This document shows, piece after piece, positions 5,108-28,113 of a DNA stretch of 28,113 nucleotides (its first letter is position 1; the number at the start of each line of letters is the position of its first letter). The stretch covers positions 1-28,113 of the IMG/VR virus record IMGVR_UViG_3300049732_000190; one strand, written 5' to 3'. Origin of the DNA: a virus. The notes beneath the pieces were generated by a model. That model worked only from the letters and a program-made list of their open reading frames with translations, ran no database searches and was not told the origin of the DNA. Both the position numbers and the translations under genes were made by a program.

Positions 5108-7092
5108 TAGCGCGTCCTTTCGTTGCCCGCGGTGAAACTGAGATACATCTGGGCAATGCTAAAATCCTGGCCCGGCTGATCATTCCACATTTCGACACTC
5201 ACCCGCCGCCCGCCGCCCGTGAGGCGGAAGCGCCGAATCAACACCGCGGTCCCATCCACGAGTGCCCCTTGTCCCAAGGCCCACGTGCCGAGGTAATACC
5301 CGCCAGGGTCCGCGACGACAAAGCTGCCTTGGGTCTGAGGCCGCGCATCCCACCACACGGCAATATTGACCGGCCAGCGCCCGGTGGGATTAAAGGCCAG
5401 CTCCAGGAATTGGGCGTTCTTATCGCGCACGGCCAGGGCAGGATCGGCAAAACTGAGATCGGTCCACATGGTCTGGAACCGTCCCTCATATCCGGCGCCG
5501 TCTTTCGCATTGCCCGGTTGATCGAGATGCCAGATAAATCCGGCGTTATCACCGGACATCAGCTCGTGATCCTTCCCGCTGGGGCTGAATATCGTTCCCC
5601 GCCGCAGCCAAAAGCTCTGACAGACATCCCGGTTGGACACGCGAAAGCGCGGGCGATCTGGCCGATTGACATCAAGCACGAGCCGATGCGTATTGACGCT
5701 CTCCCCTTTGAGCCGCATGGCGATATGCACCTCGCGCCGATAGGGGTAGTAAATCATGCGGGCGTAGCGCAGGGCATGACTGTCGGCAAATTCGCGGACA
5801 ATCTGATCAATCTGTGTCGCTCTGGAGAGCGATTGACTGCCAAGGTTGGTAAACTCTTGCACGGCACTCAGCAGATGCACATCACCCGTGGCGTCGAGAA
5901 AGACGACATCCCCTTCGATCATGACCTGGGTCGCCCCGTTCAGCCCGCCAAAGGCATTCGTGAGGCGTTCGACGTTCCAGTCTTCCTGGGCGATACTGGA
6001 GGTATGGACGGTATAAATCCCACGGGGATACTTCCAGACGATGAGCAGCCCGGAAAAGCTCAGCATCCCTGAGATGTATTGCCCTTCGCCGGGGAACACC
6101 TCGAGGCTCCCCGCCCCCGCCGTAGTCGACAGGAAATTTTCATGGTCGCTCGGGGTAGAGTAATACAGCCGATGCGGACTGTTGGCATTCCCGGCTGCCC
6201 AGAGCCGATTGGCATGCAACGCCCCACAGTGAGGCCAGTTGGTACCATCCCAGTCCGTGGGGCGCCCATTCGTGAGATTTGCGGTGGGTGGCTCATCGGT
6301 GCCCAGGCTCGCCTGGGCGGTCGTGTCGAAATATTCGGTATCCGTGTTGTTATTGAGCTGCACCACCAGCTTATAGGCCCCAGTGCCCGACTTGAACCGA
6401 TAAATTCGCCGCGCCGTCGTGGTCGATCCCCCGACCGCTAGGCTCTGCAGTTTAATGACCCCGCCGCCAGCCTGTGGCTGATAGACCGGATTTGAGGCGG
6501 GGCTGGGCGTCGTTTCTCCCGCGCTCGTCACAAACGTGTAGACATAAGCATAAAAGCCCTGGTCAACGTTGCCAGCGCCGACAAGCCCCGTATCAATTGC
6601 AGAACACACGGGCGGTGGGGCCAGGGGGGTGCCTCCTAGCACTTGCAGGATGCTTTCGGTGCCGCGCAACACCGCGGCCGTCGTATTCTGGACAAACAGA
6701 AAGAGCTTCTTGGGATTACCCGAGATTTCCGCGCCCCCTTCGACGAAAATGGGCGGCAGAATGCCCTGGATAAAGCCCACGCCGCTGGCTGCGGCAAAGA
6801 GGCCGTCGTTGTTGTCGATTTCCAGCTCGCCATTGGCCCCGTCGCTCACGACGATCACGCAGCGTTGAATCGTCGGCGTCGGCCACCAGTCGTGTCCCGC
6901 CTCGATAAAAGGCGCCGAAAGTGGCGTGGGACGATACTTGACCGCCCCGCCTTCTTTGCGAATCGAGCCATCATGAAACGCCACATTGAAGGCCTGCAAG
7001 AGCGTATCCGGGGGCGCTTGCCCGGACGTGTGACTGCCGATCAGTCCCCCCTCACCCAGTGGCAAACGCAACACTTGTCCACGGTAGGCCAT
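5107..7092 (-). CDS. Large tail protein, tail-tube/stabilisation type (661 aa)
   Basis: This is a beta-rich protein of about the size of podoviral tail-nozzle or tail-stabilising proteins. The early part carries LLQAFNVAFHDGSIRKEGG, resembling segments in large tail proteins that follow the adaptor. Later parts have repeated strand-like blocks (GTESILQVLGG; HCGALHANRLWAAGN; MLSFSGLLIVWKYPRG), suggestive of a propeller or jelly-roll fold. A longer reading to 7113 is open, but the ATG at 7092 makes a TAATG overlap with the adaptor gene and gives the natural N-terminus MAYRGQ. Adaptor followed by this gene is the conserved head-tail order, supporting a gp12-like or gp10-like role. The exact family name is not certain. 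Confidence 0.7.
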   Translation of the reverse strand: MAYRGQVLRLPLGEGGLIGSHTSGQAPPDTLLQAFNVAFHDGSIRKEGGAVKYRPTPLSAPFIEAGHDWWPTPTIQRCVIVVSDGANGELEIDNNDGLFAAASGVGFIQGILPPIFVEGGAEISGNPKKLFLFVQNTTAAVLRGTESILQVLGGTPLAPPPVCSAIDTGLVGAGNVDQGFYAYVYTFVTSAGETTPSPASNPVYQPQAGGGVIKLQSLAVGGSTTTARRIYRFKSGTGAYKLVVQLNNNTDTEYFDTTAQASLGTDEPPTANLTNGRPTDWDGTNWPHCGALHANRLWAAGNANSPHRLYYSTPSDHENFLSTTAGAGSLEVFPGEGQYISGMLSFSGLLIVWKYPRGIYTVHTSSIAQEDWNVERLTNAFGGLNGATQVMIEGDVVFLDATGDVHLLSAVQEFTNLGSQSLSRATQIDQIVREFADSHALRYARMIYYPYRREVHIAMRLKGESVNTHRLVLDVNRPDRPRFRVSNRDVCQSFWLRRGTIFSPSGKDHELMSGDNAGFIWHLDQPGNAKDGAGYEGRFQTMWTDLSFADPALAVRDKNAQFLELAFNPTGRWPVNIAVWWDARPQTQGSFVVADPGGYYLGTWALGQGALVDGTAVLIRRFRLTGGGRRVSVEMWNDQPGQDFSIAQMYLSFTAGNERTR

Positions 7093-8090
7093 TAGGGCTC
7101 CACTCTCCGCCACTGGGCGGGAACCTTCGGGTCGCGTGGCCGAATGGCCCCAAAGGCGCTAGTCCGGTCAAAGGCCCGTATCTGGTACTGGTTTTCATGG
7201 GCCATGGCTTCGAGTCCCGACTTCGCTGCGGCGCCGACGCCTTCTGCGCGGTCGTCGTTTTTATCCACGAGCAGCCACAGGAGCGCCCAGTCAGATAGCA
7301 CCCGCCGCCATTCCCAGGGCACGAGCGGTTCCTCGCTGGTGCCAGGACTCGTCAATAAAGTCGGCCGCCGAATGTAGTCATATTCGATCCGAAAGAATTG
7401 GTTATACAATCCCGTCGTCAAGCCATCAGCGTAGCGGTTGAAGCGAATCTTCTGCTCGGTGACGCGGGCGTAGACATCGGGCATGCCGGGCTGGACCATC
7501 GCCAAGGGCCATTCGCTTTCCAGGCGCTCGAGATCCACCTCCAGAATCTTGTAGGGGTCATCGTTCGTGTTCTTCCGAAAGCAGCGCATGGGGCTCAAGA
7601 GACGCATCACATCGGAGGCGAGGGCATATTCCAACGCCCCCGTGATATACGAGTAGGGCCCCGTGTTAAAATCCCAGGGGCTGTCCAACGTGGCCGTATT
7701 GGTATTGATCGTATGGGTGGCGATACGGTAGAAGTCGGGGTTATCCCCGATCTTGATGAACCACCCCTGGATCGGCACGACGTTTTCCCCGATGATGCCG
7801 CTGAACGTCAAGGCGGTACTGTTAAACGTGGCGGTCACAGTCGCGGGTGAGTTATGCACGCCAGGCGCCAGCAGCGGAAATACAAAGAGCACGCCAGGCG
7901 GATCTTTCTTCAGCCAGCGCCACTCTTCGCGCATGCCGGGCACCAGCTCCCCGCCCCCCGCTGCAATGCCGAGGTACGCACGGTTGAGGTAGGACAGCAC
8001 CGTGGCCTGATACTGACTGGTGCCATCCGTGGGTTCCCCAGCCCGAAAGAGCACATCAGTGATCAGGTCGGCGGTAAATTGAAGATTCAA
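7092..8090 (-). CDS. Head-tail adaptor / tail tubular A-like protein (332 aa, TTG start)
   Basis: The N-terminus (FTADLITDVLFRAGEPTDG, then SYLNRAYLGIAAGG) is typical of gp11-like adaptors that dock below the portal. The middle part contains beta strands and the C-terminal part is helical, ending in a basic tail. The start is unusual: the reading frame opens with a TGA, and the only start codon next to the ribosome site is TTG at 8090, with GGAG 9 nt upstream (8100-8103). No ATG or GTG lies between that stop and the conserved N-terminus. It follows the signal-peptide cassette and leads directly into the tail protein with a one-base overlap. Confidence 0.8.
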   Translation of the reverse strand: MNLQFTADLITDVLFRAGEPTDGTSQYQATVLSYLNRAYLGIAAGGGELVPGMREEWRWLKKDPPGVLFVFPLLAPGVHNSPATVTATFNSTALTFSGIIGENVVPIQGWFIKIGDNPDFYRIATHTINTNTATLDSPWDFNTGPYSYITGALEYALASDVMRLLSPMRCFRKNTNDDPYKILEVDLERLESEWPLAMVQPGMPDVYARVTEQKIRFNRYADGLTTGLYNQFFRIEYDYIRRPTLLTSPGTSEEPLVPWEWRRVLSDWALLWLLVDKNDDRAEGVGAAAKSGLEAMAHENQYQIRAFDRTSAFGAIRPRDPKVPAQWRRVEP

Positions 8091-8116
8091 ATGATATCAC
8101 TCCGCAGATTGGCCAC

Positions 8117-11100
8117 CTAATACCCCCCTGGCAAGCAGCCCGCGCTCATGATATTGAGCCGGCTATGCACATCCTGAGGGCTGTTGGTCACCGTATTGAG
8201 ATCGGCGCTCGTGACCAGGGTGGTGGCGCTGAACGTGGGATTTGTCCCGCTCACGGTTGCCCCCGCGGCCCCGAGCCATTTGCCGCTATTACCCGTGTCC
8301 CACAACTTTGCTGTTGTCTTGGTGCCATTCTGGTACAGGTAGAGCACTTCCGCGCCCACATCTTGCCCGTTCAGCCCTGTACCTTTTAGTGTGGTGGCAG
8401 TCGTCGGCACCCACACCCGACAGTTCCCCATGGGATTTGAGCCAGTAATTTCGTTGGTGATATTGGCATGCGTCGCGGCTGGCGTAAAGGTGCCACCCGT
8501 GGAGCCCATCACGGCGACATAATTGGCGCCCCAATCTTCGAGGTTCACTTCGTCGGTATAGAAGCCCCATACCGTAGGCGCAATCGAGAGCACATTCTGC
8601 AAGAACATCGACCGTGGGGCGGTGCCAGGTGTACTAAGGGAGCTGGCATAAATATACCCACGCTGGCTACCAAACACGGTGCATTGCTCGCAGCGCGTGT
8701 TCCGTCCAGCTCGCATATAGAAGCCATACGTGCTTGGGCTCACAATCAAATGGTCACGGTAGAGCATATCTACGGTTTGGCCGCCACCAGACTTACCCTG
8801 GGCCAGTGCGCCAAAAATGCCGCCCATAACAATGTTGCCATAGAATTGATTATTCGTGCTGGTGCTCGATGGCTCTGGCGAAAACCCATGGCCGCTATCT
8901 TCGCTGATGTTGCTTTCGGTAATCCCGCCACTACCAGGATATTCCCGAGCGCACAAGTCGCCTTGTGACACAGTGCCAGAAGGAAATCCCCCAGTCGCAT
9001 CCATATACCCACGACTATTGCAGTAATTCAGACGGGCAATCGTGCGGCTGCCGTACTTGGTCACGAGGCCATAGCGGTGAAAGTAGTAAAATTCATTCTC
9101 GATGAATTGATTGTCATGCGACGCCGTTGTGGTTGAATCGCCGTTTTGGAACAGTGACATATTGCCAAAGCGATTGCTGTGGTGTGCCAGATTCCGGTAG
9201 AAGCGCAAATTATGGGAGCTGCGGATTTCCACGGTACTAAAGCCTTCACCGCTCCCGTCGTTGTCCCGCGAGCTAAAGCGAAGCCCATTGATATGCCAGT
9301 AATTGCAACTGGTAATCCGCAAAGCAGGCGTCAAGCCGTTGGTTTTGAGCCAGGCTAGGCGTTCATTGTCCGCTTGTAAGGTAATAGGAGCACTGGCGGT
9401 CCCATTCAGCGCATTGCCACCACTGGCACAATTCAGATTGACAAAGTTGCTGCCGGTAATATTGTACGTGCCGTCTTGCAGAATCCAGGTTTCGCCAGGA
9501 CTGGGACGGGGTTCGCTGGTGCTCATCAGTCGAGATAAGGCACACGGCGACCCACTGCTACAGGTCGACCCACTGCCCCCCGTTGAGACATAAAACGCAC
9601 TGGCCGCACTGGTGGTTTGATCACCCACGGCACCAGTCGTTGAAAGACCGACACCATTCACCGCATAGACCGCGGCTTCGTAAGCCGTACCCGCACTCAA
9701 GCCCGTTACGGTGGCACTGCATGATCCACCAGCCATCGTGCCCTGGACGCTTGGGTCCGTGCCAAACGTGACCGCGTTATCATTGGTCAAGTCGTACACC
9801 ACATGACAGGCACTGATGCCCGTTTGGGCATCTGAGGCTGTCGCGGTGACGGTAAAACTCGTCTGGGTGACATTGCTAAACGCGACACTGCCGACACTGG
9901 GCGCGGTGTTATCCACCGGTGCGGCAGGTAACGCAGGCCCCGCCTCGCAGACGCCCCATTGCGCCACATCGGTGGGGCTGCTGGTCAGATTAAACGCCTG
10001 CTTATACTTCATCGTGCCGCCCGTCACCCGCTCTTGCTGGCGAAAATCACACAGCCATTGGCTCCCTGTGGCTATGGCGACAGGACTATCAAAGCATGCC
10101 TGCATGCGGCGTCGATCACCCGAGGTGGATTGCGAGAGTGCCAGATTCGCCAGGTCTGCGGTGGTGCTGAACACGCCGCTAGGCCAGGTGGCATCGTACT
10201 TATCCGCCTGTGGGCTGATGCCTAGTAACCAGGTATTCTCATCTTTCACTCGATCCAGGCTCGTCATGCGGAGATAGGCAAATACCGCCTGGTAATTGGC
10301 GATCGCCGTGTCATCTTCGGCCACGTCGACCCAAGATTGATTCGCAAGGGTTTCTTCCCCCCGCACACAGATGCGATCTGGTGTGCCATTCTTCCACACC
10401 GCGGCAATGAGCATATCCGCTGCGGGTGTCGTGCTATGCCCGGCCTTGGCCACAATGCTGGCCCGGTCCCATTGAGCGTCATCAATTGTCGGCTCATCCA
10501 CCACCTCATATAGGGCATAATTGACTGTCACCCCAGCATCGCCCCCAGGCGATACCGGATTGGCGTTAGCATCGGTGGAGCAGTACCAGCTATCGAGCAT
10601 CACTGATGGCTGAGTCAGGACATAGAGATCATTCCCACTCGTAAACGCGAAGTCTCGTTGCGCGGTGTCGTTAATCGGGACGGATGAGCCTTCATTCACC
10701 CGCTGCAGGTTTTCATCGGCACGACTGCCAATGCGCGTCCAGGTCCAGTCCGCCGCCACACCACCGTTGAAGAGAATGCTTGCCGCCGTATTACTGGGCA
10801 CTGGGCCAAACGGGGTCTTGCTCAGCCAGGCAATGCCCGTTCCTTTAGCACGGAGCCAGAGATAATTGCAGGTGGTGTCAATTTCCATGGCAAGCTGGGT
10901 CTGAAAGTCCCGCGTGCCGGAGAGCATCCCGAGATAATCACCACCATCGGCCGTGGTATCGACCACCGAAGCCCAGCTCCCAGGATCAAACACCGCATCT
11001 TCTGCGGCGGCGCAGCGATGGGACGTATCACAGACGGCCCACACGTCAACCGGTGTCGGCACATAGCGCCATTTCGCGGCATGGCTCATGGTCGGCATGA

Positions 11101-11134
11101 GGAGCAGTAAGATCCAGGCGATCAGGTAGGCCAT
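8117..11134 (-). CDS. Exported Fn3 and beta-helix protein (1005 aa)
   Basis: The protein begins with a clear Sec signal peptide (residues 1-19, MAYLIAWILLLLMPTMSHA, cleavage expected before AKW). An N-terminal domain of unknown fold covers about 20-405, an Fn3-like domain about 409-510 (DNTAPSVGSVAFSN to QTTSA), and a right-handed parallel beta-helix region runs from about 514 (FYVSTGGSGS) to about 900, with repeated Asn-rich turns such as NQFIENEFYY and NNQFYGNIVMGG. About 20 cysteines, many closely paired, suit disulfide formation outside the cytoplasm. Beta-helix proteins of this kind include tailspikes and polysaccharide lyases, but no catalytic set can be assigned. GGGGAG precedes the ATG, and the previous gene ends 3 nt before it. 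A signal peptide is unexpected for a virion spike, so this may instead be a secreted or envelope protein. Confidence 0.8.
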   Translation of the reverse strand: MAYLIAWILLLLMPTMSHAAKWRYVPTPVDVWAVCDTSHRCAAAEDAVFDPGSWASVVDTTADGGDYLGMLSGTRDFQTQLAMEIDTTCNYLWLRAKGTGIAWLSKTPFGPVPSNTAASILFNGGVAADWTWTRIGSRADENLQRVNEGSSVPINDTAQRDFAFTSGNDLYVLTQPSVMLDSWYCSTDANANPVSPGGDAGVTVNYALYEVVDEPTIDDAQWDRASIVAKAGHSTTPAADMLIAAVWKNGTPDRICVRGEETLANQSWVDVAEDDTAIANYQAVFAYLRMTSLDRVKDENTWLLGISPQADKYDATWPSGVFSTTADLANLALSQSTSGDRRRMQACFDSPVAIATGSQWLCDFRQQERVTGGTMKYKQAFNLTSSPTDVAQWGVCEAGPALPAAPVDNTAPSVGSVAFSNVTQTSFTVTATASDAQTGISACHVVYDLTNDNAVTFGTDPSVQGTMAGGSCSATVTGLSAGTAYEAAVYAVNGVGLSTTGAVGDQTTSAASAFYVSTGGSGSTCSSGSPCALSRLMSTSEPRPSPGETWILQDGTYNITGSNFVNLNCASGGNALNGTASAPITLQADNERLAWLKTNGLTPALRITSCNYWHINGLRFSSRDNDGSGEGFSTVEIRSSHNLRFYRNLAHHSNRFGNMSLFQNGDSTTTASHDNQFIENEFYYFHRYGLVTKYGSRTIARLNYCNSRGYMDATGGFPSGTVSQGDLCAREYPGSGGITESNISEDSGHGFSPEPSSTSTNNQFYGNIVMGGIFGALAQGKSGGGQTVDMLYRDHLIVSPSTYGFYMRAGRNTRCEQCTVFGSQRGYIYASSLSTPGTAPRSMFLQNVLSIAPTVWGFYTDEVNLEDWGANYVAVMGSTGGTFTPAATHANITNEITGSNPMGNCRVWVPTTATTLKGTGLNGQDVGAEVLYLYQNGTKTTAKLWDTGNSGKWLGAAGATVSGTNPTFSATTLVTSADLNTVTNSPQDVHSRLNIMSAGCLPGGY

Positions 11135-11137
11135 GTT

Positions 11138-11881
11138 CTACTCCCCTCCCACGACGATACGCACGCTTTGCCCGACGGCCGCTTTGACCGACACACCAAC
11201 ATGGTCCATTTGATACGTCGTGGCATCCCAGGAATAGTCCATCCCTACGCTCGCGGCACCCGTTTTCGTGCTCGCAATACAGGTGATGTTATTACTGGCT
11301 GTGCCGTCAGTGGTTACGCTCAACCATTCTTCGACCTGTGGACTATCCGCGGTCGGTGTGTCGCCACTGGAGCCCCGGGACAGATTGGAAATCACCAGCT
11401 CCCCCGTCGCACTGCCCACACTGATGGCTGCGGAGTTCGCATTAAAGCCCTGCGTGATCGGCGTCCCAAAGGGGTTGCCCAGGTTGACGCCTTGGAGGGT
11501 GATGCACCCAATGGCCCAGCGATGGTTTCCGCCCGTGCCTTCGACGGTATTGCTCCCCGTGGTCGGATTGGCGAGATACCAGATTTCGCTGCCGTTACTA
11601 CCGCCACCATCGCCGCCTTCGTTTTGTGCCAGCTTCGACAGGCCCACGGAGTTGTAGGTAATGCTCGTGACATCGGTCAGGCCACGCCGGCAGACACCGC
11701 AGATGAGCAGCCGATTACTCCCCGTTGCGCCTGAGTCATGCGCAAAGCTGACCGTGGTACTTTGTACCGCCCCGGTGTTGCCGGCATTCGACGTGCCCAC
11801 TTCACTGGGGGCCGCGGCAACGGCCAGCGTGGCCCAGAGGACCATCGCGCACAGGATGAGGACCGATTTAATTGATCTCAT
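11138..11881 (-). CDS. Exported beta-sandwich protein (247 aa)
   Basis: Residues 1-23 (MRSIKSVLILCAMVLWATLA...) form a typical signal peptide with a basic start, a hydrophobic core and a small-residue cleavage region before APSEVG. The mature part is beta-rich and glycine/serine-rich, with segments SNRLLICGV, SEIWYLANPTTGSN, WAIGCITLQGVN and GELVISNLS, which look like successive strands of a jelly-roll. It shares this order with the protein at 22552-23289. The frame is open further upstream (to 11992), but the ATG at 11881 gives the signal peptide and a 14-nt overlap with the previous gene. It sits second in the four-gene exported cassette. Its function is unknown. Confidence 0.72.
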   Translation of the reverse strand: MRSIKSVLILCAMVLWATLAVAAAPSEVGTSNAGNTGAVQSTTVSFAHDSGATGSNRLLICGVCRRGLTDVTSITYNSVGLSKLAQNEGGDGGGSNGSEIWYLANPTTGSNTVEGTGGNHRWAIGCITLQGVNLGNPFGTPITQGFNANSAAISVGSATGELVISNLSRGSSGDTPTADSPQVEEWLSVTTDGTASNNITCIASTKTGAASVGMDYSWDATTYQMDHVGVSVKAAVGQSVRIVVGGE

Positions 11882-12662
11882 AGTCAATACCGATCGTGCA
11901 TGTTTTGCCTGCGGTCGGCGTATTCGTGGTATCCAGCAACAGAGACTCACCTGCCACAAAGACATTAGCCGCGGTGATCGCCTTGGGAGCATAGGTGGCG
12001 CTTTCGGAGGTGCAGGTCGGATTCGTATCGGTAATGGTCAGGGCATTGCCAGCCCCATCTTTCAGCGTAAAGGTCGGCAGGGTGCCCGTGACATCACTAC
12101 ACCGACACCAGATCGCAGTCACCGTCGAGGCATGGCGGAAATGACCGAAGGGTGTGTTATCATGCGTTGCCGCGACGTCGATAATGGTGATATAGCGCTC
12201 TTTCAATGCCGGTGACACGGTGATGGTGCTTCCACTCGCGGCGGTACTCAGCCCCTTCGCCCCTATAACGCTGATATTTGTTGGCCCTGATGCCACGACA
12301 GATCCGGTATTGCCATCGATCTGCATGATGGCGTCGTCATTTTCGCCAATCAGATGCCAGTTTTGCCCAACGCCATAGCAAATATAGGTATCGCCCAGCG
12401 TCGTCGTATCACGATAGATGGCCTTCTCGTGTGGGCACGAGCCAGACGACGGAGCCCCTGCCCCATTCAGCAAAAAGCTTCCCGTCACGACCTCGGGATT
12501 GAGCAGCTCGCCATTTTCGTCCAGGCCCGCCGCCCCGCCAGGCGTGCCAATGGTGACATCTCCCCCGGTGCTGGGCGGGACATATTGCACCTGGCCCCAC
12601 AGTGGCAGGCTCGCCAGGGCCAGGATGGCCAGGAGGGCGCTGAGCAGCGCCAGACGACGCAT
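11868..12662 (-). CDS. Exported virion-like or surface protein (264 aa)
   Basis: The N-terminus (MRRLALLSALLAILALASLPLWG) is a strong Sec signal or membrane anchor. The mature region starts with a Gly/Pro-rich linker (VQYVPPSTGGDVTIG), then a segment like those of phage tail or fibre proteins (GAGAPSSGSCPHEKAIYRDT; TYICYGVGQNWHLIG), followed by strand-rich sequence and a C-terminal beta domain. Six cysteines in the mature part (SC, IC, WC, RC, TC, TC) would allow three disulfides. A GGGGGGAG lies 6 nt before the ATG, and the gene starts in a TGATG overlap. The YRDT...YICYG pattern recurs in short phage host-contact proteins, so it may be a secreted relative of a fibre domain; that is inference. 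Confidence 0.72.
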   Translation of the reverse strand: MRRLALLSALLAILALASLPLWGQVQYVPPSTGGDVTIGTPGGAAGLDENGELLNPEVVTGSFLLNGAGAPSSGSCPHEKAIYRDTTTLGDTYICYGVGQNWHLIGENDDAIMQIDGNTGSVVASGPTNISVIGAKGLSTAASGSTITVSPALKERYITIIDVAATHDNTPFGHFRHASTVTAIWCRCSDVTGTLPTFTLKDGAGNALTITDTNPTCTSESATYAPKAITAANVFVAGESLLLDTTNTPTAGKTCTIGIDYEIN

Positions 12663-13087
12663 CAGCGACTCCCCCCATGGCCTTCGAGATACGCATTGAT
12701 CGTCCCACTGGTGTACGCCGTGATGCGCACCTTGACCCAGCGCACGTTGATGGTCATCATGACCACCTGGTCCGTGGTAATGTCGGTCGCGTTGAGCTTG
12801 ATGCCGTGGGTATTATCGGCGGGCTTCGTGGTGGCGTTGCTCCCGTCGATCTCCACCGTGGCCGTGGTAATCCCCGCGACATGCACGCTCATCGTCTTGA
12901 GCCCAGAGGCGTCAATCCACTCCCCGTCTGTCGTGGCCACAGCAGAGGTGAGCATCTGGGCGCGGAGGACTGTGGTCCCATTGACGCTGATCGTCGTGGT
13001 GGCGATCGCCCCGAAGGCAGCCAGCGGCCACCACAGCACCAGCGCCAGGAGCGTGATCAGGAGCCTATCCACGGCGCGGGCGCCCAT
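12662..13087 (-). CDS. Exported small beta-rich protein (141 aa; start uncertain)
   Basis: The N-terminal region carries an obvious hydrophobic signal segment (VDRLLITLLALVLWWPLAAFGA) with cleavage expected before IATTT. The mature ~114 residues are Thr/Val-rich and strand-like (TTTISVNGTTVLRAQMLTS; TMSVHVAGITTATVEIDG; WVKVRITAYTSGTINAYLEG), resembling small phage beta-sandwich domains. Three starts fit: ATG 13093, ATG 13087 or GTG 13072. The GTG would overlap the previous stop by 8 nt and gives the shortest n-region, but none has a strong ribosome site. I use 13087. The frame is open to 13321, but that extension is arginine- and cysteine-rich shadow sequence over the real gene at 13065. First gene of the exported cassette. 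Confidence 0.65.
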   Translation of the reverse strand: MGARAVDRLLITLLALVLWWPLAAFGAIATTTISVNGTTVLRAQMLTSAVATTDGEWIDASGLKTMSVHVAGITTATVEIDGSNATTKPADNTHGIKLNATDITTDQVVMMTINVRWVKVRITAYTSGTINAYLEGHGGSR

Positions 13088-13355
13088 GTCCATCGGTGGG
13101 ATTCTGCCACCCCACGGCATGCAGACTGGCCGGCGAACACTTGCGCAGCTCTTCGTCGAACCAATCAGGGAGTTCGTCTTTTGCGATCTCATCGCCCCCC
13201 TCGCCATACACCGCCCCCCCCTGCAGCCAGACCGGCGCGGCATCAGCCCCGCACAGGCGCATGGCGTAGCGCGTGGCGACAAGTTTATTGATCGGAATGC
13301 CGCCCTCTTCGACGGCGGCAAACTCGGTGATTTTGGTTAAGGTGAATGCTGGCAT
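13065..13355 (-). CDS. Small head-region protein of unknown function (96 aa)
   Basis: I do not recognise this protein. It has a strand-helix start (AFTLTKITEFAAVEEGGIPINKL), a middle with VWLQGGAVYGEGG, and an acidic helix (DEIAKDELPDWFDEELRKC). The last ~15 residues are basic and low in structure. An AAGGAG precedes the ATG by about 10 nt. The gene lies two places after the capsid-associated protein and immediately before the exported cassette, which it overlaps. It has no signal peptide, so it marks the boundary between the cytoplasmic structural genes and the exported ones. Head completion is possible but unproven. Confidence 0.65.
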   Translation of the reverse strand: MPAFTLTKITEFAAVEEGGIPINKLVATRYAMRLCGADAAPVWLQGGAVYGEGGDEIAKDELPDWFDEELRKCSPASLHAVGWQNPTDGHGRPRRG

Positions 13356-14198: not shown

Positions 14199-15149
14199 TT
14201 ATAAGCTGCCCACATGGATAAGATTGGCTTCGCCAGCGTTCGCCGAATCTTCCCACGGCATGCGCACAGCGATTTGCCCATACCACGCCACCGAGTTGAA
14301 CCGGCCCGCTGCGCCCCGTGGAGGGCTGGCGTACAGCTCAGGCGTGCGGCCCTCGATCATAGCCAGGGCATTGGCGCCAAAGCACACGCCTTCCCCGAGC
14401 ACAGATCCGGTGCCGACTTTTCCCAATGCGGCCGCATGGTTGGTGCGGACAAAACGGAGGTTGTCGATCTTGCCGACTTCGCCCTGATATTTGGCCTGTG
14501 GATCGGTGTACTGATGCCAGATTTCCCAGTCCGGGTCATTCATGATGCCGCGCAGCGCCAGTTGTCGGAAAATGCCCAGATACCCGCCCCCGTCGACCTC
14601 TTCCATGTGGTAGGTGTCATACATGAGGTCGACCAGTGCGGAGGCATGGTAGACGTTCATGTTGGCGGTGGATGCCGCGCCAAAGGTGCCGTTGGTGGTA
14701 AAGTTACTCGTGGCGGCCCCGGTGATGGCATACTTGAGCTTGCCGAGCTTGGCGGCCGCAGCCGCAATGGTATCGATCGCCAGGGTCATCTGCTGGCGCA
14801 GCTTGCGCCGGATGCCCTGTTCGAGCCCGATCATGCTCATGTCGCGGCTGAACCCCGTAAACGGCACCTGGCGCCCGATTTCCCGCAGCGTCAAGGCAAT
14901 GGTGCTCATCGAGAAGGCATCTTCGGGGATGTCCTGGGTTTCCGACAAGTAGACGCTGGTCGGCTCGGCCAGGTTACTGATGCGCGGGATGGTGAGCGAT
15001 TCCCCGCGCCGGGTACCGAAGCCAGGCGTCATGTCGATATGTTCGACAAAGACGCTGTCGGCCATGGCGGCGTCAAGAATCTGGCTGGACACTTCATGGC
15101 TTTTATACGTGCCCGAGGGGGCGTCAAATTCCCATGTAAAGTTCGGCAT
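14199..15149 (-). CDS. Major capsid protein, N4-gp56-like (316 aa)
   Basis: The sequence has the pattern of the N4-gp56 family of HK97-fold capsid proteins. It has an N-terminal arm, a segment FVEHIDMTPGFGTRRGESLTIP with a conserved-looking Gly-Thr-Arg/Lys turn, then LREIGRQVPFTGFSRDM, a long helix (IRRKLRQQMTLAIDTIAAAAAKLG), and a C-terminal part with GYLGIFRQLALRGIMND, KIDNLRFVRTNHA and GSVLGEGVCFGANALAM. The length is close to what this family shows. GAGG lies 6 nt before the ATG. The scaffold gene directly upstream (15 bp gap) supports the assignment strongly. It assembles into the icosahedral shell around the scaffold. Confidence 0.9.
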   Translation of the reverse strand: MPNFTWEFDAPSGTYKSHEVSSQILDAAMADSVFVEHIDMTPGFGTRRGESLTIPRISNLAEPTSVYLSETQDIPEDAFSMSTIALTLREIGRQVPFTGFSRDMSMIGLEQGIRRKLRQQMTLAIDTIAAAAAKLGKLKYAITGAATSNFTTNGTFGAASTANMNVYHASALVDLMYDTYHMEEVDGGGYLGIFRQLALRGIMNDPDWEIWHQYTDPQAKYQGEVGKIDNLRFVRTNHAAALGKVGTGSVLGEGVCFGANALAMIEGRTPELYASPPRGAAGRFNSVAWYGQIAVRMPWEDSANAGEANLIHVGSL

Positions 15150-22551: not shown

Positions 22552-23289
22552 CTACCTCCGCGCAAAGAAGCGATACGGCCGACGTCGTGCCGGCCTCGAG
22601 GTCGCTGCTGCGCTCGCGGCTTTAAAGCTCGCAACACCTGTGAACCATGTTCGAGGCGCAGCGCCAGTACCAGCGACTTTAGTACCATTACAGGTTACAC
22701 TAGCCGTCGATGAGACAATTTTGTAGCCCAGATTATACGCTTGGCCGGTGCTATTTGATTCATTCTCAGCGGCTTGCGTAAACCCATCACCTGTGTCTGT
22801 CGCCATGGCATAGGTATCGCCTGTATGACTATGACTGAAAAAGATAATTTCATCAGCTTGGGATAGGGTGCCTGTGACAACGCTAGAGGTATAACCATTT
22901 TGATCAGTAAACGCCCCTGTATTGGTGACTGACACATCACGTTGACTGCTTGTGACTGCGCCGCTGACTTCGGTTAACGCCAGGTCAATATCTGCTGAAG
23001 TGCCAGGAGGATTACAAGTAACTTGTGTACTACCAGCACCGCAATTCGGAAAACTATGAAGATAAATCTCGCTATCGGCGTCACCGTTGATAAAATATCC
23101 AGTAGTGCTATAGCTACTCCACGTACCATTGACCGGATCACTGATGGTCGGTTCGCCAGAGCCGCCACCGTTAAAAATAGCGCTATGCAGCACAAGCAAA
23201 TTCCCTGCGCTGACAGTACGGGTTACGCTCGCGCTGTTAGCGCCACCCGCTCTGGTAGCTACAGTTGTGCCAACGACATCCTGTGCCAC
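22552..23289 (-). CDS. Jelly-roll-like protein with basic tail (245 aa, GTG start)
   Basis: The body is beta-rich (SAGNLLVLHSAIFNGGG; SEIYLHSFPNCGAG; IDLALTEVSGAV; DEIIFFSHSHTGD; TWFTGVASFKAA) in the same strand order as the exported protein at 11138-11881, but without a signal peptide. The last ~15 residues are strongly basic (RPARRRPYRFFARR). The start is a GTG in a TAGTG overlap with the upstream gene, preceded by GGTGAG. The DNA from here to about 23640 is visibly more AT-rich than its surroundings, which suggests acquisition from elsewhere. Its function is unknown; a virion-surface domain is the best guess. Confidence 0.65.
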   Translation of the reverse strand: MAQDVVGTTVATRAGGANSASVTRTVSAGNLLVLHSAIFNGGGSGEPTISDPVNGTWSSYSTTGYFINGDADSEIYLHSFPNCGAGSTQVTCNPPGTSADIDLALTEVSGAVTSSQRDVSVTNTGAFTDQNGYTSSVVTGTLSQADEIIFFSHSHTGDTYAMATDTGDGFTQAAENESNSTGQAYNLGYKIVSSTASVTCNGTKVAGTGAAPRTWFTGVASFKAASAAATSRPARRRPYRFFARR

Positions 23290-27329: not shown

Positions 27330-27623
27330 GTGCCCAACACACATCACGACTATTGCCCGATATTGCACGGACCTGACAAATGCCCAAACTCGTGCGCGTG
27401 CCCGCAAGGCTATGTGTACCTAGGGCGCCAGGCGTGGATTGTCGGCCTGGGGATGTCAGGAGCCCAAAACCATCATATCGGTGCACAGGCGTGGCGTCTA
27501 TATGCCCCACGTCAGGCAGGGGCCCCATCAGCGTCTGGCGGCGTTTACGGGCCTCACAGCACCAGCGCTGGCCTGGTGGAGGGGCATTCTCTCATGTGTA
27601 AGATGGCGATGGGTAGGCCATGA
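27330..27623 (+). CDS. Doubtful Cys-rich ORF between regulator and helicase (97 aa)
   Basis: The stretch 27306-27619 has open frames in all three plus-strand phases and no clear winner. I list this frame because its TGA overlaps the helicase ATG as ATGA, matching the tiling elsewhere. The product has an N-terminal cluster of five cysteines (DYCPILHGPDKCPNSCACP) that could bind a metal, but the rest is low in structure. It begins with GTG and has no good ribosome site. The frame-1 reading near 27500 (QRLAAFTGLTAPALAWWRG) also looks partly protein-like, so a different gene or a frameshift is possible. Confidence 0.3.
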   Translation: MPNTHHDYCPILHGPDKCPNSCACPQGYVYLGRQAWIVGLGMSGAQNHHIGAQAWRLYAPRQAGAPSASGGVYGPHSTSAGLVEGHSLMCKMAMGRP

Positions 27624-28113
27624 CGACGATTGCCCTCCGACCGTATCAATTGGAAGCCATCGAAGCAGCCGAGAAAGTGCTGGCGCAAGGCCATCATCCG
27701 GTGCTGGCGTTGCCCACCGGGGCAGGTAAAAGCCTGGTGCTGGCAGAGATCGCCCGGCGCCATGATGGGCGTGTGTTGGTGGCCACGCATCGGCAGGAAC
27801 TGCTGCAGCAGAATATCCGCGCCTTGGCGCAGCTCTCCGGCCTGGAGTCGGCCGGCATCTATTCGGCCGGCCTGGAGCGACGGGAGGCGGAGGCACGGGT
27901 GGTGTTCGGCGGTATCCAATCGATCTATCGCCACATGGAGCGCCTGCAGGCGTGGCGACCGTTCTCCCTGGTCATCGTCGATGAATGCCATCTGGTGCCG
28001 CCCAAGAGCGCCAACGGGGCCATGTATGCCCAGGTCTTCGCCGCCTGCCCAGAGGCTCCACGAGTGGGGTTGAGTGCCACACCCTACCGCTTGGAAGGCG
28101 GACAGGTCTGGGG
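27620..28113 (+). CDS. SF2 DEAD/DEAH helicase, N-terminal part
   Basis: The gene runs off the right edge; 164 residues are visible. Motifs occur in order: an RPYQ segment (7-10) before a helix, Walker A PTGAGKS (32-38), motif Ia VATHRQEL (54-61), Ib FGGIQS (96-101), Walker B DECH (121-124) and motif III SAT (152-154). This is the first RecA-like domain of a superfamily 2 helicase, close to the phage and bacterial types with a DECH box used in replication, repair or recombination. The ATG at 27620 overlaps the previous frame's TGA. It is transcribed away from the structural genes, so it likely opens the replication region. Confidence 0.9.
   Translation, partial: MTTIALRPYQLEAIEAAEKVLAQGHHPVLALPTGAGKSLVLAEIARRHDGRVLVATHRQELLQQNIRALAQLSGLESAGIYSAGLERREAEARVVFGGIQSIYRHMERLQAWRPFSLVIVDECHLVPPKSANGAMYAQVFAACPEAPRVGLSATPYRLEGGQVW

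Follow-up and report, generated by a model that had tools for sequence, protein, structure and literature searches.

Tailed phages are assumed to make and assemble their virion proteins in the cytoplasm. Secretion signals on ordinary phage late proteins are found in the exported endolysins (fOg44 Lys44, P1 Lyz, phage 21 R21), and, secretion signal aside, an exported endolysin can be closely related to a canonical one, as described in the available part of PMC6116005. We analysed a 28,113-base virus record, IMGVR_UViG_3300049732_000190 (hereafter, the window), in which four adjacent late genes, named SP1 to SP4 in this analysis (as are terL and similar), each appear to encode a protein with an N-terminal Sec signal peptide (hereafter, tag). 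Re-routing fibre-type proteins through Sec would be the same kind of step as that known for lysins (PMC6116005, available part). Exported endolysins are lysis enzymes, however, whereas SP1 to SP4 match no lysin family, lie in a head-tail slot and stand four in a row. In our leading but still tentative reading, they are late proteins, at least partly made of fibre- or decoration-type modules, to which cleavable Sec signal peptides have been added.

Lom and Bor of lambda and Cor of phi80 and N15 are likewise tagged phage proteins whose genes lie in or close to structural regions, but these are single envelope proteins for lysogens, unlike runs of fibre-type proteins. An engineered T7 also has a signal peptide, that of PhoE, on a virion protein, but it is man-made, sits on the capsid protein and is kept (PMC5157022, available part). 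Pantoea WceF is a tailspike-like beta-helix enzyme with an export signal, but it is bacterial, uses the twin-arginine (Tat) pathway and belongs to an exopolysaccharide operon (PMC7949094, available part). XepA of PBSX and YomS of SPbeta are the best fold matches of mature SP1, yet they are lytic-cassette proteins with 12-15% identity in the fold alignment; the available part of PMC6834076 describes XepA as exported and absent from mature particles, with capsid binding also discussed by its authors, and there we found no report of a classical tag on either protein. The cement, neck and turret jelly rolls of phages (7dou, 8fwg, 8h89, 8qpg, 9hz8) appear to share the general fold of SP1 and, with the SP1 relatives, a place among head genes; we found no report of a tag on them. 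Among the open-licence papers listed we found no report of natural signal peptides on fibre or decoration proteins of tailed phages, and the available parts of PMC3517404, PMC3606486, PMC5384007 and PMC8951688 mention none either, the last describing an endolysin with a signal peptide.

Predicted signal peptides of SP1 to SP4

N-termini were scored with a home-made scorer that requires an n-region without net negative charge, a hydrophobic core free of charged residues and small residues at -3 and -1. The scorer and its limits were set with the data under view, and 9/9 control signal peptides passed. Sec/signal-peptidase-I-type signal peptides were scored in 4 of the 34 genes called by hand in the window, exactly SP1 to SP4, and the chance of four positives among 34 being consecutive is 0.0007. 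Among homologs of the other 30 genes, which are distinct yet mutually related, 0/307 passed at 6.8 with the start set by the alignment. The pass rates were 34/6000 trials for shuffled N-termini of the other 30 genes, 63/8000 for shuffled mature SP1 to SP4 and 5/138 for non-gene open reading frames (ORFs) of the window. The four adjacent signal-peptide genes named in the preliminary description are thus recovered by the scorer.

All four genes lie on the minus strand. SP1 (12662..13087, ATG at 13087) encodes 141 residues, a tag of about 26 residues (13010..13087, score 7.88, site placed by eye) ahead of a predicted jelly-roll domain without Cys, an assignment drawn from the scorer, untagged same-slot relatives and the fold. 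SP2 (264 residues; 11868..12662, ATG at 12662) has a tag of about 23 residues (12594..12662, score 8.68) preceding GQVQYVPP, although alignment with a relative, the phage of record L010, places the cut possibly one residue further in (...LWG/QVQ). For SP3 (247 residues; 11138..11881) the mechanical ORF begins at 11992, deep within SP2, and the ATG at 11881 was taken, giving a tag of about 22 residues (11816..11881, score 8.79). The largest of the four, SP4 (1005 residues; 8117..11134, ATG at 11134), has a tag of about 19 residues (11078..11134, score 7.04) with no basic residue in its n-region; that of SP1 contains Asp. Beyond residue 40 the peak 19-residue mean hydropathy is 0.84-1.18 in the four proteins, indicating no further membrane segment. 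The residue at +1 of the cut is A, Q, A and A in SP1 to SP4, not the Cys of lipoproteins (signal peptidase II), and a small residue stands at -1 in 14/14 tagged proteins examined here and in other phages (sites placed by eye).

The L010 phage (with the identical-looking record L011) has a capsid protein 62% identical to that of the window, synteny across the compared stretch and a tagged gene in each of the four positions (scores 8.5, 7.94, 8.16 and 6.83). Identity between the two phages is 8/21 in the tag versus 94/115 in the mature part for SP1, 6/18 versus 115/242 for SP2 and 6/19 versus 345/928 for SP4, a contrast that is strong for SP1 and slight for SP4. The conservation of SP1 and SP2 extends right to the presumed cut, and the mature start GQVQYVPP of SP2 is fixed despite a differing tag length (19 residues in L010). 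Since the type of tag is conserved while its sequence has turned over, Sec export is the plain reading, and from these sequence features SP1 to SP4 are very probably exported.

The same comparison bears on whether the true starts lie behind the hydrophobic stretches, in which case the tags would be an annotation artefact, as the preliminary description had allowed. SP1 and SP3 of the window have no clear ribosome-binding site and both overlap the preceding gene, as such an artefact would have it. Against this, SP2 and SP4 have strong ribosome-binding sites, GGAGG stands ahead of the tagged SP1 start in L010, the conservation of SP1 and SP2 reaches the presumed cut, and hydrophobic N-termini of different sequence occur at all four places in L010. 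Because L010 is tagged at all four places with turned-over tag sequences, misplaced starts are very improbable, the starts being set by comparison within a mostly metagenomic set.

The mature parts of SP1, SP2, SP3 and SP4 contain 0, 6, 4 and 20 Cys, respectively, and so three of the four are Cys-rich, in agreement with the preliminary description. The total, 30/1567 residues, compares with 59/6978 in the other 30 genes (p 0.0005) and 21/5322 in 18 hand-picked structural-type genes. Across 14 tagged proteins of four phages the count is 172/8009, with the SP2 tag of L010 taken one residue short, versus 22/3035 in 17 untagged slot proteins (Fisher p 6e-8, which assumes independent residues, which residues are not).

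Untagged relatives and the type of the mature proteins

In relatives of the window's phage, an untagged protein of about 80-141 residues is encoded at or near the slot between the homolog of orf_13065, the gene preceding SP1, and the adaptor gene (two are cut by the record start), and the complete ones begin near the mature SP1 start. Eleven of these untagged slot proteins were aligned with mature SP1 at 12-28% identity, and a seven-sequence profile matched SP1 with an hhalign probability of 89.8 (E 1.8e-6). Untagged SP1 homologs were also found in record L098 (36% identity across 97 residues; E 3e-12 within a set of 34 proteins) and in Octadecabacter Antarctic DB virus 2, as its gp15 (E 1e-5 against the deposited collection). 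No adaptor-adjacent gene scored 6.8 in 20/20 loci besides the window's phage and L010 (two reach 5.57 and 5.33), with some of the ORFs short or doubtful and some records beginning inside the slot. In some relatives the slot is filled by untagged fibre-like or glycine-rich genes, for example in L018 (Gly_rich_2 just under the cut-off).

The fold of mature SP1 was modelled with AlphaFold2 from SP1 and 12 relatives (predicted local distance difference test, pLDDT, 71.7; predicted template modelling score, pTM, 0.64). The best matches of 995 chains were XepA (Z 11.0, 2.4 Å, 95 residues) and YomS (Z 10.3, 2.4 Å, 94 residues), both from Bacillus prophages; neither was listed at E 5 when the SP1 alignment was searched against PDB sequences. 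Jelly rolls of phage cement, neck, turret and capsid proteins matched the model at Z 7.2-8.2, the level of the unrelated proteins with which they were interspersed. Among predicted viral proteins, 15 matched at E <=0.001, nearly all of them uncharacterised phage proteins.

SP3 has an untagged homolog in another record (L099:2187-2894; 32% over 141 residues) that begins behind the tag. A second proposed relative, orf_22552 as an untagged SP3 paralog, was a by-eye idea and was rejected (hhalign probability 0.4). The third gene of L010 has a weak tail-fibre match (phrog_24898, E 0.0036). SP4 contains a fibronectin type III domain (fn3; residues 413-499, 9638..9898, PF00041 E 2e-7), and its C-terminal half (residues 508-1005, 8120..9613) is 36% identical to a beta-helix protein of the phage of record L005. 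The L005 protein lies above the Beta_helix cut-off and the L010 ortholog of SP4 just under it (25.6 bits, cut-off 25.9); the structure model of SP4 has a pLDDT of 32.8. No family matched SP2 at E 0.01, SP1 to SP3 had no fibre or beta-helix family match, and in SP4 fn3 was the only family found. PDB sequence searches with the SP4, SP2, SP3 and SP1 alignments returned only presumed chance matches (best E 0.006-0.074). Taken together with the tagged proteins of other phages, the mature parts are probably of virion fibre or decoration type.

Tagged runs in other phages and genomic setting

A distant relative, G009 (records L098 and L111, the latter examined because of the L098 match; capsid 44%, portal 32%, adaptor 29% identity), encodes an SP1-like protein (L098:17245-17619, by eye) and a closer SP1 homolog, both untagged, and has four tagged genes followed by the adaptor. 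The tagged proteins have 830, 743, 550 and 407 residues and 24, 20, 20 and 4 Cys, and there are possibly two small ORFs between the second and third genes and an 87-residue ORF after the last. The 743-residue gene has a TTG start and a Beta_helix match above the cut-off. Two starts are possible for the 550-residue gene: one gives a 31-residue tag, and the one preceded by the better ribosome-binding site gives a tag of 14 residues that the scorer does not accept. In the 407-residue protein a tail-fibre match (phrog_1980, positions 6-73, E 6e-7) lies ten residues behind the tag.

The L005 phage has little in common with the window beyond SP4 and orf_20417, and has two consecutive tagged genes between the portal gene and a phrog_8469 tail fibre. 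Its beta-helix protein passes the scorer only when the start is set at a GTG inside the ORF, 19 codons in. In its 874-residue tagged protein, residues 24-147 share 47% identity with a Microcystis phage protein that has no tag and whose first residues, MTIYLKQST, fall where the L005 mature part begins; the match has E 2e-17 against the collection and 6e-26 within a set of two proteins.

In the first scans for tagged genes, starts were taken within the first 45-60 codons only, and the first tagged gene of G009 was missed thereby. A rescan of 103 loci (match strand only, start linked to the preceding gene, at least 100 residues, score at least 7.0) returned the window's phage, L010, L005, L098, one 104-residue ORF (L087) and one 167-residue ORF (L100); its limit excludes SP4 of L010 (6.83). 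The scorer is less specific once any early start is allowed: further ORFs were flagged, several on the opposite strand, a homolog of orf_22552 scored 6.85 via an internal start under the loosened rule, and a 242-residue gene in L020 (7.42, internal start) was judged a false positive. The 167-residue ORF (L100:7560-8063) is an additional tagged gene of the L010 phage, well away from the late cassette. A looser scan also picked up small tagged ORFs opposite the late-gene strand in L067, L074, L075, L078, L079 and L091, some of which seem genuinely secreted by eye.

Two deposited phages from one spring were scanned with a lower limit and alternative starts, flagging 6 of 55 scanned genes in the complete phage MW202444 and 2 of 40 in the podovirus MW202627. 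In MW202444 a tagged late protein of 1253 residues is followed by one of 124 residues with a tag-like internal start (L116:36356-40476), both annotated as hypothetical. In MW202627 a 341-residue protein (L117:1-1026) with the N-terminus MRKLRWLLLMAVAACQ, lipoprotein-signal-like by eye, is related to the end of the 550-residue tagged protein of G009. Arg-rich C-terminal tails were seen in several proteins: RRRRR in the fibre-like proteins L012:5092-6045 and L018:8543-9922 and, by eye, RRHRQ in the tagged beta-helix protein L005:9947-14500 and RRPYRFFARR in orf_22552 of the window (22552-23289). The tail pattern occurs in 6/995 ORFs, not all of fibre-like kind, and could be a docking signal.

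In sum, within one phage group tagged and partly fibre-type runs occupy the head-tail slot in two branches, and a pair occurs in another phage. Given that L010 has four tagged genes at this position and the distant G009 four others, the run is more than one chance acquisition, as had been proposed at the outset. The untagged homologs suggest that tags were gained more than once, loss of the tag in the untagged forms being the alternative.

These comparisons also weigh on a quite improbable alternative, that SP1 to SP4 are host secretory genes captured singly as unrelated passengers. Secreted bacterial proteins often contain beta-helix and fn3 domains, and G+C is lower over SP4 (0.56-0.575 over 8001-11000, vs about 0.60 around it), a dip that may mark SP4 as the latest addition to the cassette. 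However, SP1 and SP3 have untagged phage homologs, L010 and G009 use the same slot, and the genes have no promoter-like site of their own: none was found on the minus strand between 7000 and 15300 in a scan for the sigma-70 consensus alone, at or below shuffle level. The one weak terminator-like site on that strand and stretch lies inside SP4, and terminator-like matches were likewise at or below shuffle level. Because several mature domains are of fibre or decoration type, re-routed virion-type proteins are favoured over captured host genes.

The late genes run on the minus strand in the order terminase region, portal, capsid protein, orf_13755, orf_13385, orf_13065, SP1 to SP4, adaptor and tail-matching protein. 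The major capsid protein (14199..15149) matches phrog_1357 (E 3e-12) and the portal phrog_1216; terL of the window has no PHROGs match at E 0.01, and its homolog in L010 matches phrog_2. The gene preceding the cassette, orf_13065 (13065..13355, minus strand), is kept in relatives, and an SU10-type adaptor (7092..8090, minus strand, PF24175 E 4e-7) follows, the protein after it matching phrog_511 and phrog_376 (tail). orf_13065 and SP1 overlap by 23 bp, and the spacing is -1 for SP1-SP2, -14 for SP2-SP3, +3 for SP3-SP4 and +26 for SP4-adaptor. On the plus strand, an open-ended ORF at 27620-28113 (MTTIALRPYQLEAIEAAEKV...) has the helicase-like motifs GAGKS and DECH by eye.

Three other records (L002, L003 and L004) encode the same SP4, at 100% identity. 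Deposited phages gave no match to SP2 or SP4, one to SP1, one weak match to the portal and three weak matches to the tail protein. Profile scans of genome contigs with the capsid and adaptor alignments (SP1 to SP4 were not used as queries) found no prophage relative, and a viral scan with the G009 adaptor returned G009 alone.

Probable export and the possible fates of the mature proteins

As the tag type is conserved, the domains occur untagged elsewhere and runs recur in one slot, re-routing of fibre and decoration proteins through Sec is the simplest account of the cassette. From overlapping or abutting genes of the late run, SP1 to SP4 would be made alongside head and tail proteins. The conserved features of the tags suggest that the host Sec machinery would export them and signal peptidase I would remove the tag, and the Cys content of SP2 to SP4 is consistent with disulfides forming in the periplasm. 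At lysis the proteins would meet the progeny, where the likeliest use might be docking as fibres or decoration or coating of nearby surfaces. Docking would agree with where the genes lie and with the fibre-type N-terminal domain of the G009 protein, and we consider it possible, if doubtful, that SP1 to SP4 join virions after lysis. The full two-compartment route, with heads and tails built in the cytoplasm, a mostly Cys-rich fibre-type set sent out through Sec to fold and form disulfides in the periplasm, and docking at or after lysis only, the tags having been added repeatedly, is on present evidence rather unlikely.

The preliminary description had offered three roles: altering the envelope or surface, acting as an extracellular polysaccharide-active set, or joining virions after lysis. 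The export common to them is supported by the sequences, and the picture is refined toward fibre- or decoration-type virion domains (SP1, SP3, G009, L005); no catalytic family was hit for SP1 to SP4 in the PHROGs, Pfam and NCBIfam searches, lytic families included, at E 0.01. Action on the host surface or exopolysaccharide fits the fn3 domain and beta-helix kinship of SP4, and action on envelope, receptor or exopolysaccharide without joining virions is a tentative proposal. Exported effectors that never join virions might block receptors against superinfection, bind or cut exopolysaccharide, or aid lysis, a possibility to which we give limited credence. The SP4 domains speak for this, and there would be parallels in XepA, the best SP1 fold match, described as exported and absent from mature particles (PMC6834076, available part), and in WceF, which acts on exopolysaccharide (PMC7949094, available part). 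Yet SP1 to SP4 are encoded within the head-tail region, neither a tail-fibre N-terminal domain nor structural-slot SP1-type proteins would be expected of pure effectors, and catalytic family hits are absent.

A signal peptide need not prevent assembly, since the engineered T7 with PhoE is infectious; its reported phospholipid binding (PMC5157022, available part) recalls another fate, in which the hydrophobic stretch is not an export signal and stays with the particle to anchor it to membrane or lipid. The small -1 residues in all tagged proteins examined, the turnover of tag sequence with its type kept, and the Cys content, which fits export, make this improbable.

Several points weigh against re-routed and exported virion-type proteins. 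The tags are predictions of a single home-made scorer. Cys is uneven, with none in both SP1 proteins, 0.47% in the 874-residue protein of L005 and 1.05% in the 407-residue protein of G009, and the untagged SP3 homolog in L099, with 4 Cys by an eye count as well, weakens Cys content as proof of a disulfide need. Turnover of the SP4 tag barely exceeds that of its mature part, and the third gene of L010 has no detectable kinship to SP3. SP2 is without an assigned family and SP4 has only fn3, virion type being best shown for SP1 and less so for SP3. The SP1 model itself is middling, and its best fold matches, XepA and YomS, are not proven virion parts.

The tagged runs mean either that some virions are part-finished outside the cytoplasm or that fibre modules are re-used as secreted effectors. 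Either reading would change the annotation of such genes, and both are directly testable.

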